20,717 nt of DNA. It comes from a virus. The stretch spans positions 1 through 20,717 of the IMG/VR virus record IMGVR_UViG_3300025828_000247; one strand, written 5' to 3'. The notes below the pieces were generated by a model, which did no database searches, was not told the origin of the DNA, and saw nothing but the letters and a program-made list of their open reading frames with translations. Made by a program: the position numbers and the translations under genes. Below, in pieces: positions 5,543 to 8,705 of the stretch (the first letter of the stretch is position 1; every line of letters begins with the position of its first letter).

Positions 5543-6550
5543 ATGAGCAAAATCGTAGAACGCATTGACGAATACCATGCAAAAAATACTGACACTCAAC
5601 GCGGACACATGGGCGGATCAATACTTGGCCACAAGTGTGAGCGATATTTGTGGTACATGTTTCGTTGGGCTTTCTCCGAAAACTTTCCTGGCCGCATGCG
5701 CCGTTTGTTTCGTCGAGGGCAACTAGAAGAGAGAACGATAGTATCTGACCTTCGAGCAATCAATATCAACATCCGTAATGTTGGCGACAATCAATCTCGC
5801 GTTGAGTTTGGCAATCATATTAGCGGTAGCGTTGACGGCATCATTTATGGTGGAGTGCCTGGGCATGAGGATGAAAAGTTTATTGCTGAGTTCAAAACTC
5901 ATAACAAAAAGTCTTTTGATCTTGTGACGAGAAAAGGCGTGCAGGAAACAAAGCCACTGCATTACGCGCAAATGCAAGTGTATATGAACGGCATGAAGAT
6001 TTATAAAGCGTTATACGTTGCCGTGTGCAAGGATAACGACGAGATGTACACCGAAATAGTTGAGTACGATGAGCAATTCGCTGAACGGTTATTAAAAAAG
6101 GGCGAATTCATTACATTGGCAAATGAAGCGCCACCAAGATTATCGGACGATCCTACTTGGTTTATGTGCAAAACTTGTCCGGCTAAACACATATGCCACG
6201 AAGGGCAACCGACCAAGCAAGTTAATTGCAGAACGTGCGCGCACTCCACTCCAAAGCCTAACGGGACATGGGACTGCGACAGATTTAAAGCTGAGGATAT
6301 TCCAGAGGACTTTCAACGTAAAGGATGCGACTCGCACGTCTTACATCCTGACGTTGTGCCTTGGACTCGATTGGAAAGTAGCGATCCGAACGAGGCAGTG
6401 TGGGAGATCCAAGGAAACTTTATTAGGAACGGCGAGAGCGATGCTAACACATACGCCAGCACCGAGTTAGTAAGTAATCTTGATGCGTGCCTGAAGCCTG
6501 ATCAGTTCATGGCGGACTTACGTTTTGATGGCGGGAAGATAGTTGGATGA
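5543..6550 (+). CDS. PD-(D/E)XK exonuclease with Cas4/AddB-type Fe-S site
   Basis: A 335-residue RecB-family nuclease. GSVDG supplies the motif II aspartate (D98), IAEFKTH the E-x-K (E116, K118), and QMQVY the QxxxY motif (Q143-Y147). One Cys before the core (C32, in HKCERYLWY) and three after it (C209, C212, C218, a CX2CX5C set) match the four ligands of the [4Fe-4S] cluster in Cas4, AddB and Dna2. A further Cys/His-rich tail (C229, C232, C245, C262, H265) looks like an added zinc ribbon. AGGAG lies 6 bases before the ATG. Near the Sak4-like and DUF669 genes, it probably resects DNA ends for recombination. A Cas4 role in CRISPR is unlikely; no array or cas gene is present. Confidence 0.85.
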   Translation: MSKIVERIDEYHAKNTDTQRGHMGGSILGHKCERYLWYMFRWAFSENFPGRMRRLFRRGQLEERTIVSDLRAININIRNVGDNQSRVEFGNHISGSVDGIIYGGVPGHEDEKFIAEFKTHNKKSFDLVTRKGVQETKPLHYAQMQVYMNGMKIYKALYVAVCKDNDEMYTEIVEYDEQFAERLLKKGEFITLANEAPPRLSDDPTWFMCKTCPAKHICHEGQPTKQVNCRTCAHSTPKPNGTWDCDRFKAEDIPEDFQRKGCDSHVLHPDVVPWTRLESSDPNEAVWEIQGNFIRNGESDANTYASTELVSNLDACLKPDQFMADLRFDGGKIVG

Positions 6551-7122
6551 AAAATCTTTGCGTAAAAAAAATATCTTATCAAGATACAAAGCCATTTATT
6601 TTAAACATTCATTACGCAAAAAGAATGCCATCAATTAGTCATGCTTTTGGATTATTTGATAATAATCAATTAACAGGAATTGTTTCTTACGGATCGCCAG
6701 CTTCTCCATCTTTATGCAAAGGAATATGTGGAGAACATAATAAAAAAAATGTAATAGAACTTAATAGATTGGTCTTAAAAAATAATGAAAAAAATTATGC
6801 TTCATTTTTAGTTTCAACATCTTTAAAAATGTTACCTAAACCTAAAATTGTTGTTTCTTATGCTGACACGGCACAAGGACACGTTGGATATGTTTATCAA
6901 GCAACTAATTTTTATTTTACTGGTACAACAAAATCAAGAACTGACATTGCATCTAAAAATGGAAAACATAGTAGGCATCATTTGGGCGATAGATCGCAAA
7001 GAGTTTTTAGATCATCTAAACACAGATATGTAATTTTTATTGGAAGCAAATCTGAAAAAAAGAAAATGATTAAAGATTTAAATTACAAAATATTAAATTA
7101 TCCAAAAAATGCGGAAAAATAG
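6547..7122 (+). CDS. Mom-like DNA-modification protein
   Basis: A 191-residue protein with the run of motifs I associate with the Mom family: HYAKRMPS (22-29), HAFGLF, GIVSYGSPAS, VIELNRLVL, then IVVSYADTAQGHVGYVYQATN, TGTTKSRTD and KHSRHH, ending KHRYVIFIGSK. In phage Mu, Mom, a GNAT-like enzyme, converts adenines to a methylcarbamoyl form that blocks many restriction enzymes. The start overlaps the nuclease stop (ATGA). The gene is visibly A+T-richer than its neighbours, suggesting separate acquisition. A cytosine methyltransferase follows directly, giving a two-enzyme protection set. Mom-like chemistry is inferred from family resemblance; some members may do something else. Confidence 0.7.
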   Translation: MKNLCVKKISYQDTKPFILNIHYAKRMPSISHAFGLFDNNQLTGIVSYGSPASPSLCKGICGEHNKKNVIELNRLVLKNNEKNYASFLVSTSLKMLPKPKIVVSYADTAQGHVGYVYQATNFYFTGTTKSRTDIASKNGKHSRHHLGDRSQRVFRSSKHRYVIFIGSKSEKKKMIKDLNYKILNYPKNAEK

Positions 7123-7126
7123 TTGA

Positions 7127-7966
7127 ATGAAAGTCCTCGATCTGTTTTCAGGTATTGGTGGATTTAGTCTTGGCCTTGAAAGGGCAGGATTTGAAACTGT
7201 GGCATTTTGTGAAGTAGATAAGAAATGCCACCAGGTATTGAAAAAACATTGGCCGAATGTGCCTATTTTTGATGACGTAAAAACATTGAATGGAGACGAC
7301 ATTGGACAACCAATTGACGTTATTTGCGGAGGATTCCCATGCCAAGACATCAGCCTCGCAGGAAAAGGAGCAGGACTTGAAGGCAAAAGATCGGGACTCT
7401 GGTGGGAGTTCCACCGGCTCATCAAAGAAATCAAACCGAAGTACGCGATCATCGAAAACGTTAGCGCCCTTCGCAATCGAGGACTGGATCAAGTCCTCCG
7501 GTCGCTCGCTGAGATCGGCTACGATGCGGAATGGCATTGTATTCCCGCTTCCGCCGTTGGCGCTCCTCACCGTCGGGACAGAATCTGGATCGTGGCCTAC
7601 GCCAACAACATCGGATTACAAGGGGGCGGCGAGTCCAGAATCGGTAAAGAAATGGGAGAAACGCGGCCACAATCTACCGGAAGCGGTGCAGTTAAACACG
7701 ATAGGGATGTGGCCAACACCGACAAGCTCGGAACACAAATATCGTTTGAAGGGGAATTCTCAACAGAGCAATTGCTTGGAGGCGCGAGCGAGGCGTGGAG
7801 AATTGCAGTCGGGGATTGCTGGACAACTGAACCCGACGTGGGTCGAGTGGCTAATGGGATTCCCAATCGGGTGGACAGACTTAAACAATTAGGCAATGCG
7901 GTAGTTCCTCAGATACCGGAACTGATTGGTCGAGCAATTATTGAGTTTGAAACAAAAGAAAGATAG
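7127..7966 (+). CDS. DNA (cytosine-5-)-methyltransferase
   Basis: A 279-residue C5-cytosine methyltransferase. Motif I is DLFSGIGGFSLGLE (5-18), motif IV GGFPCQDIS with catalytic C72, motif VI ENV (110-112), motif VIII in APHRRDRIW (R150, R152) and motifs IX-X in RLKQLGNAVVPQI. The target-recognition part between about 160 and 240 is short. It moves the methyl group of S-adenosylmethionine to C5 of cytosine in a short target; in a phage without a partner endonuclease this mainly gives protection from restriction. The start lacks a good ribosome site and follows the Mom-like gene by 4 bases, so it may depend on coupling. About 600 bases of the gene also hold a second long frame. Function is firm; target unknown. 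Confidence 0.93.
   Translation: MKVLDLFSGIGGFSLGLERAGFETVAFCEVDKKCHQVLKKHWPNVPIFDDVKTLNGDDIGQPIDVICGGFPCQDISLAGKGAGLEGKRSGLWWEFHRLIKEIKPKYAIIENVSALRNRGLDQVLRSLAEIGYDAEWHCIPASAVGAPHRRDRIWIVAYANNIGLQGGGESRIGKEMGETRPQSTGSGAVKHDRDVANTDKLGTQISFEGEFSTEQLLGGASEAWRIAVGDCWTTEPDVGRVANGIPNRVDRLKQLGNAVVPQIPELIGRAIIEFETKER
7290..7892 (+). CDS. Possible overprinted protein inside the methyltransferase gene (200 aa)
   Basis: A 200-codon frame lies entirely within the methyltransferase gene, in the +1 frame. Its product has features of a protein type I recall next to phage cytosine methyltransferases: an N-terminal LTLFAEDSHAKTSAS (9-23), two WPTPT elements (102 and 141) and the ending LNPTWVEWLMGFPIGWTDL (180-198). 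The last block is read from the same bases as the methyltransferase VGRVANGIPNRVDRL. Serine, threonine and charged residues dominate. The ATG has no clear ribosome site. It may be a real overlapping gene, or its conservation may be imposed by the methyltransferase frame. Function unknown. Confidence 0.4.
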   Translation: METTLDNQLTLFAEDSHAKTSASQEKEQDLKAKDRDSGGSSTGSSKKSNRSTRSSKTLAPFAIEDWIKSSGRSLRSATMRNGIVFPLPPLALLTVGTESGSWPTPTTSDYKGAASPESVKKWEKRGHNLPEAVQLNTIGMWPTPTSSEHKYRLKGNSQQSNCLEARARRGELQSGIAGQLNPTWVEWLMGFPIGWTDLNN

Positions 7967-7970
7967 TCGG

Positions 7971-8705
7971 GTGAAAAAAATTTTTGATATTTTTAAAAAA
8001 CAAAAAGAGCCAAAAGTAATATGGTGGTCTGTAATTGATGGCTTGGAGAAAGTAATTCCAGTTGTTAAATCTAAAGAATATATTCCAGATTGGTGGAGGA
8101 AGGCAGAAAGGTTTACAGATAATAAAGATTTAATGGACAGAGGAACAATAAAAAATTGTCCTTCAATGCCAGAATTTTTGTCTCAAGGATATGTTTTGCC
8201 ATTATGGTGCGATTTACATATAACAATAAATGAAAATGGATTTATATTGCAATCGCCTGAGCCAATGTTTACTTTTTCATCTCATAATGACGCTCAATTC
8301 AAAAATTTTCTTCCTCAAGATATTCAAAATAATATCAGCATGGTTCTAAAACCAAATTGCCCTTGGAGAGTAAAAACGCCAGATGGATGGTCTTTAATGC
8401 AGTTACCTATGTTTTACGAATTTAATCCTATTTTTGAAGTTTTGCCTGGAGTTATATGGTCAGACATTCATTATGAGATAAATCAACAAATGTTGATAAA
8501 AAAATACGGAGAATTTGAATTGAAAAGAGGAACACCTTTGGCAATGTATGTTCCTTATAAAAGAGTTAAATACAAAACAGATTTACAAGGAACAACACAA
8601 GAAAATTCTAATTGGTCAAACGAAAGTTATTTGCACATAAAAACAAAATTTAATAATGGATACAGATTAAATCAAAAAAATAAATGTCCATTTTCTAAAA
8701 TTTAA
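7971..8705 (+). CDS. Conserved phage protein of unknown function (244 aa)
   Basis: The frame is open from 7926, but the GTG at 7971 (VKKIFDIFKKQ) is preferred: it follows the methyltransferase stop by 4 bases and avoids overlap. The protein is rich in Trp, Pro and Tyr: IWWSVIDGLEKVIPV, YIPDWWRKAERF, CPSMPEFLSQGYVLPLWCD, CPWRVKTPDGWSLMQLPMF, LPGVIWSDIHYEINQQ, KRGTPLAMYVPYKR. I recall this layout from proteins of environmental phages but know no assigned function. No signal peptide, membrane segment or nucleotide-binding loop. The gene is strongly A+T-rich, like the Mom-like gene upstream and unlike the helicase after it. Its position in the modification group suggests a linked role, which is a guess. 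Confidence 0.75.
   Translation: MKKIFDIFKKQKEPKVIWWSVIDGLEKVIPVVKSKEYIPDWWRKAERFTDNKDLMDRGTIKNCPSMPEFLSQGYVLPLWCDLHITINENGFILQSPEPMFTFSSHNDAQFKNFLPQDIQNNISMVLKPNCPWRVKTPDGWSLMQLPMFYEFNPIFEVLPGVIWSDIHYEINQQMLIKKYGEFELKRGTPLAMYVPYKRVKYKTDLQGTTQENSNWSNESYLHIKTKFNNGYRLNQKNKCPFSKI

Follow-up and report, generated by a model that had tools for sequence, protein, structure and literature searches.

A conserved +1-frame gene nested in phage C5 methyltransferase genes, probably encoding a second subunit of the enzyme

The window analysed here, a stretch of 20,717 nucleotides of viral DNA (IMG/VR record IMGVR_UViG_3300025828_000247), carries a C5 cytosine methyltransferase gene (alpha) in which a second, +1-frame gene (beta) is nested. 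There is strong support for beta being a coding sequence that is conserved and under selection, and not a shadow frame. With a probability that we put at roughly 80%, the locus encodes a two-subunit C5 methyltransferase in a single stretch of DNA, beta being the second subunit and the partner of alpha. Both halves of one two-part enzyme thus appear to lie on the same DNA in hundreds of phages and prophages, a broad natural system in which one sequence is selected in two frames. This settles a question of annotation, as a phage family labelled 'DNA methyltransferase' or 'hypothetical' corresponds to a genuine overlapping gene, which probably supplies the subunit that the overlapped enzyme lacks.

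The original prediction described a 200-codon +1 open reading frame at 7290-7892 within the methyltransferase gene. It is found as described, initiated by ATG and covering 72% of the gene. As also proposed, bases 7827-7883 serve both frames, the translations being LNPTWVEWLMGFPIGWTDL in the +1 frame and VGRVANGIPNRVDRL in the methyltransferase frame. Both open reading frames are present at 100% identity in an IMG/VR contig (L006). The features of the locus are the following.

7127-7966, + strand: alpha, frame of the C5 methyltransferase catalytic subunit, 279 aa, with motifs I-VIII and X (PF00145, 9e-54; phrog_363, 4e-89; AlphaFold2; Foldseek)
7290-7892, + strand: beta, nested +1-frame gene, 200 aa from ATG 7290 or 196 aa if initiated at TTG 7302 (open reading frame and constraint tests)
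7292-7295, + strand: GGAG, candidate Shine-Dalgarno sequence 6 nt before TTG 7302 (sequence; counts of start plus Shine-Dalgarno in relatives)
7302-7304, + strand: candidate TTG start codon of beta, at a position that close relatives share
7337-7345, + strand: motif IV of alpha, PCQ, with the catalytic Cys72 (translation; conserved in the alignment of relatives)
7593-7709, + strand: module 1 of beta (WPTPTTSDYKG..., 39 aa), proposed target-recognition unit (module survey; beta-frame constraint)
7616-7864, + strand: alpha residues 164-246, predicted unfolded, with little constraint at 164-231 (AlphaFold2; substitution rates)
7710-7826, + strand: module 2 of beta (WPTPTSSEHKY..., 39 aa), proposed target-recognition unit (module survey; beta-frame constraint)
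7827-7883, + strand: motif IX-like segment of beta, LNPTWVEWLMGFPIGWTDL (conservation, synonym lock, profile comparisons)
7889-7912, + strand: motif X of alpha (LGNAVVPQ), at which beta ends (positions 303-330 of the canonical methyltransferase profile, i-E 0.005)

A Mom-family DNA modification gene (PF25680, 1e-38; phrog_1384, 2e-58) lies at 6547-7122, directly upstream of the methyltransferase gene, so that two DNA-modification genes adjoin. On the other side, the listed TTG start of the open reading frame 7926-8705 (phrog_7084, unknown function) falls inside the end of alpha; this frame probably starts further downstream, since its phrog_7084 match begins at residue 38.

Beta has no match among Pfam and NCBIfam models but matches phrog_1008 (E=3e-24) and, more weakly, phrog_26627, 31772, 27243, 16143, 26324 and 10223, several of these families carrying the label 'DNA methyltransferase'. 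The separate predicted protein that the original prediction placed beside phage methyltransferases does exist in databases, phrog_1008 and the other families consisting of the beta frame itself. Some depositors have annotated the nested gene, as DIVA_50 ('g49 internal gene') or as ORF30 of K1G ('Mte8-like protein').

Relatives were gathered by the +1 protein, by the methyltransferase protein, from annotated phages and from bacterial and archaeal genomes. In those analysed (more than 100 phage genes and 80 bacterial or archaeal loci), the +1 frame stays open in the same register, and a search for stops in close relatives found that the frame is not lost there. Among 78 relatives selected by the methyltransferase, the longest +1 run spans 105-356 codons (mean 233), versus a mean of 59 for the +2 frame. 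Shuffles of these 78 genes that keep the amino acids and the junction dinucleotides give a mean +1 run of 159, which indicates that the length of the frame exceeds chance, yet is partly due to methyltransferase composition. Open-frame length was discarded as sole proof, since shuffles often match it in GC-rich members, in several of which all shuffles equal the real length. A +1 profile trained without 31 held-out loci, which had not been selected by the +1 frame, scores these at a mean of 212 bits versus 107 for their shuffles, the real gene outscoring all 20 shuffles in 31 of the 31 loci.

Substitutions were then compared in both frames. In 46 independent pairs, differences per codon at the third alpha position amount to 0.47 and 0.50 at the two non-overlapping ends of the gene, to 0.28 and 0.31 over codons 91-165 and to 0.17 over codons 236-256; across codons 166-235, variation is higher at the first position (0.51) than at the third (0.41). 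Changes that are silent in alpha and alter beta occur, in 37 pairs, at 1.02 and 0.90 of the neutral rate outside the overlap and are depressed along it to 0.76, 0.54, 0.59, 0.61 and 0.16. Those that would create a stop in beta fall to 0.10-0.19 of neutral in codons 60-163 and 232-252, versus 0.82 in the poorly aligned codons 164-231. In these same codons 164-231, substitutions that change alpha and are silent in beta are neutral (0.985 of the neutral rate).

The conserved alpha residues 236-250 are, moreover, locked to one synonym each in a set of 106 genes (Pro236 CCC in 101 of 102, Gly239 GGT in 99 of 99, Val241 GTG in 101 of 101, Ala242 GCT in 95 of 95, Gly244 GGG in 105 of 105), even though the locked codons are used at 18-24% elsewhere. 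First alpha positions, which are third positions of beta, remain free within the needs of alpha (Arg240 is encoded by CGA in 83 genes and by AGA in 21), and all synonyms are back from alpha codon 256, where beta has already ended in most members. Some of these counts are dominated by loci picked through the beta motif, but the lock is also present in the held-out set of 31 genes not selected by the +1 frame.

A constraint beyond that of the methyltransferase frame is thus clear, as is the maintenance of the frame in relatives, and both strongly favour the true overlapping gene that had been put forward as one of two possibilities. The other, that database entries copy a shadow frame, is rejected by the constraint at alpha-silent sites and by the synonym lock. 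More generally, a non-functional frame held open by the codon and amino-acid constraints of the methyltransferase would account for the coincidence of the conserved stretches of beta with conserved methyltransferase motifs and for the long +1 frames that often open by chance in GC-rich members. We consider it scarcely credible in view of the locked synonyms, the constraint at alpha-silent sites, the selection against alpha-silent changes making beta stops (0.10-0.19 of neutral in codons 60-163 and 232-252) and the +1 third-position pattern found in the modules described below; it is refuted unless there exists a nucleotide-level constraint that has exact +1 codon periodicity.

In the phage of the window, beta would start by internal initiation, at ATG 7290 or TTG 7302. 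The ATG directly follows a stop in the same frame (TGA ATG, 7287-7292), and close relatives have AAGGAG ahead of the same TTG. In many relatives, an ATG or TTG at alpha codon 55-60 opens the beta frame and is preceded by a Shine-Dalgarno sequence, as in AAAGGAGAAGACATTG and AAGGAGGATATCAATG. A simple scan detects such a pair of start and Shine-Dalgarno in 54 of 106 genes, nearly half being without it; shuffles yield 28.9 +/- 3.6 (maximum 37). These starts, which lie at the very beginning of the beta frame and often right after a beta-frame stop, argue against a fusion of alpha and beta made through programmed frameshifting or transcriptional slippage. Such a fusion would join the N-terminal half of alpha to the modules and motif IX of beta into a nearly complete one-chain enzyme, and the shared region is indeed open in both frames; but in the usual layout it would be devoid of motif X, and we regard it as improbable.

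What beta does is suggested by what alpha lacks. Ordinary C5 methyltransferases carry motifs I-VIII, a target-recognition region, motif IX and motif X on a single chain. Alpha carries motifs I-VIII, including a conserved PCQ and an invariant ENV (PF00145, 9e-54), and resembles these enzymes up to residue ~165, then again at motif X (LGNAVVPQ; i-E 0.005). Between them, no target-recognition domain or motif IX is recognisable: Pfam and canonical profiles end near residue 165, and residues 164-256 align nowhere with canonical methyltransferases in hhalign comparisons. The AlphaFold2 model of alpha has pLDDT mostly of 86-98 for residues 1-163, mostly below 50 for 164-246 and of 93-97 for the motif X helix (262-278), with no folded small domain predicted. 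Its best Foldseek matches are M.HhaI and M.HaeIII, over ~165 columns. Alpha residues ~232-252 are nevertheless conserved (0.48 of neutral), so that alpha must also have some role there.

Alpha is therefore devoid of a recognisable motif IX and of any predicted recognition fold, and a motif IX-like segment is found at the right place in beta, which ends in relatives with a near-invariant GxLNPxWVEWLMGFPxGWT. This segment is the only point at which the beta profile meets canonical methyltransferases (hhalign E 0.007-0.03, with 0.007 for the C-terminal part), in a match so short (18-19 columns) that it is not significant alone at database size. Likewise, the beta profile retrieves from all PDB sequences just two entries, with an insignificant E of 1.6, both of them C5 methyltransferases matched at the motif IX-like LEPDEVEMLLGFPKNHT. 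Joining alpha 1-163, beta 106-200 and alpha 254-279 yields a composite that aligns colinearly with one-chain enzymes over 263 columns, compared with 168 for alpha alone. It is the combination of weak single matches, colinearity and a complementary gap in alpha that points to beta as the missing part of the methyltransferase. The fold of beta and the recognition role of its modules remain putative, given the poor, low-confidence AlphaFold2 model of beta alone (mean pLDDT 57), for which a Foldseek comparison with viral structures gave no usable match.

The anti-restriction or regulatory role evoked by the original prediction is disfavoured, since the C-terminal motif of beta resembles the C5 methyltransferase motif IX that is absent from the methyltransferase frame, which makes a methyltransferase subunit the better reading. 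An independent protein of this kind (anti-restriction factor, regulator or DNA-binding protein), encoded by a real overlapping gene but acting outside the methyltransferase, would fit with the own initiation signals seen in many relatives, with an N-terminal half of beta (LFAEDSxAKTS, SGxMRNG...LPPL) unlike any known methyltransferase part and with a chain that is not confidently folded alone by AlphaFold2. It is unlikely, though less so than a fusion, because alpha lacks motif IX and the recognition domain exactly where beta has its motif IX-like segment, because two natural variants described below, Phonnegut and L219, hold motifs IX and X jointly in the frame of beta, and because beta always accompanies methyltransferase motifs. 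Indeed, a search for stand-alone homologs in the best 80 bacterial or archaeal loci and in 274 gammaproteobacterial genomes (10 of which carry phrog_1008) found none without methyltransferase motifs, these being present in all of the 80 loci.

As a methyltransferase subunit, beta would also bring the region that reads DNA. From the end of alpha motif VIII up to motif IX, it consists of 1-6 modules beginning with WPTP, at least two being present in 152 of 175 betas, with a median spacing of 34 residues and a last module placed 39 residues from motif IX. In 336 ungapped pairs of modules, which were defined from beta's own motif, identity reaches 78% in the beta frame and 42% in the alpha frame, at 71% DNA identity; of 77 independent pairs, 76 show the higher conservation in the beta frame, and the differences counted at the three alpha codon positions (0.50, 0.20, 0.16) bear the signature of +1 coding. 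Like modules are also found at different positions of the array (44 pairs, partly among close relatives). From their position, size and variability, these modules are probably target-recognition units. In this variable region, the constraint sits on the nested gene, which inverts the usual picture of a nested gene as a passenger.

The nested pair is found in phages of Paenibacillus, Escherichia, Klebsiella, Mycobacterium, Rhodobacter, Lacticaseibacillus and others, as well as in loci from many bacterial phyla and from two archaeal bins (Poseidoniaceae; L203 and L236, whose contigs may be viral or mis-binned). Beta is nested in the +1 frame in all typical relatives, and no nested +1 frame was found in the one-chain C5 methyltransferases sampled from genomes. 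A quick tree of alpha, with long branches, places nested and canonical enzymes on opposite sides of one branch, with a support of only 78. The 77 flanking proteins submitted to a Pfam tally are for the most part those of phages (integrase, Mu Gam, GPA); the 25 families listed, out of 58, include no restriction-system endonuclease. Two loci (L195, 1824-3728, and L230, 2703-4767) each contain two adjoining nested pairs.

Several variants depart from the typical layout. In Mycobacterium phage Phonnegut (L170, 1604-2618; gp85/gp84), alpha extends only as far as motif VIII, and motifs IX and X lie together in the beta frame; Paraburkholderia adhaesiva (L219, 2694-4236) has the same arrangement, with both motifs in the +1 open reading frame. 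Judging from the distribution of their motifs, both are ordinary split enzymes, an AquI-like version of the nested beta family. A few of the best 80 bacterial or archaeal loci have an interrupted or truncated alpha; in three (L204, L234, L237), a single stop interrupts alpha and the overlapping beta stays open, which could reflect a degenerate prophage or a sequence error. Indels swap the frames in two others, the N-terminal part of alpha running into beta (L240, 2761-3625) or beta running into motif X of alpha (L241, 2347-3801), as a result of either a sequence error or a real rearrangement. Brochothrix BtpYZU03, considered as a half-beta match, was rejected, being a canonical one-chain enzyme with motif IX in frame.

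Taken as a two-subunit enzyme, the locus would work as follows. The zero frame would give alpha, with cofactor binding, the PCQ and ENV motifs, motif VIII, an apparently unfolded linker and motif X. The +1 frame, from an internal start at alpha codon ~55-60, would give beta, which would supply the WPTP target-recognition modules and motif IX. We infer that the two chains assemble, that both are needed and that beta recognises DNA, occupying the place of the small DNA-reading domain of one-chain enzymes; with the alpha-beta enzyme, the phage would probably mark its DNA as a protection from host restriction. The large frame cloned or annotated alone would then yield half an enzyme, a possible reason for inactive phage methyltransferases and for specificities that are missing. 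On a broader scale, the chances seem to us evenly balanced that these loci define a class of cytosine methyltransferases spread across phages, in which two chains are obligatory and multispecificity is frequent, and whose DNA-reading half (tandem shuffleable modules and motif IX) lies in an overlapping +1 gene and acquires new specificities by swaps of beta modules. If so, the alpha frame merely tolerates these swaps, staying open through its disordered linker, and many annotated 'DNA methyltransferases' are half enzymes.

M.EcoHK31I and M.EaeI are natural two-polypeptide C5 methyltransferases, the small open reading frame of M.EcoHK31I being nested in the large one in a different frame. Two proteins are reportedly required for in vitro methylation by M.EcoHK31I, as the title of Lee et al. 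is said to state. Multispecific phage C5 methyltransferases such as M.SPRI and M.phi3TI carry tandem target-recognition domains in a single catalytic chain. In the open-licence literature, no paper describing a beta-type nested gene in phages was found, prior recognition being possible, notably in REBASE, nor any record or paper explaining phrog_1008-type proteins as a methyltransferase subunit. Phrog_1008 and its relatives (annotated as 'DNA methyltransferase' or unknown), DIVA_50 and the K1G protein are the same +1-frame product as beta.

The family described here resembles a variant of the two-subunit C5 methyltransferase of the M.EcoHK31I type, the likeness being one of layout. In the passage of PMC3404938 that describes M.EcoHK31I (YGGCCR), citing Lee et al. 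1995 (NAR 23:103), the larger polypeptide has motifs I-VIII and X and the predicted target-recognition domain, and the smaller one has motif IX. Similarly, the large chain here holds motifs I-VIII and X; motif IX may lie on the small nested chain, whose near-invariant C-terminal segment aligns with it colinearly, though weakly by itself. However, the recognition domain of M.EcoHK31I is in the large subunit, whereas the corresponding region of alpha is predicted to be unfolded and is barely constrained, the conserved modules being in beta; furthermore, M.EcoHK31I belongs to a restriction-modification system, whereas the loci found here are phage or prophage-like. In M.AquI, another split C5 methyltransferase, the second, small chain carries both motifs IX and X (PMC3404938). 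Here too, the motifs of one enzyme are divided between two chains, and Phonnegut and L219 show the same split (I-VIII, then target-recognition domain, IX and X), but the window and nearly all relatives keep motif X in alpha, with beta nested. Finally, the WPTP modules, if they do recognise DNA, would recall M.SPRI and M.phi3TI, with tandem, exchangeable modules of ~35-40 residues between motifs VIII and IX; unlike in these enzymes, the modules are encoded in an overlapping second frame and not in a single catalytic chain.
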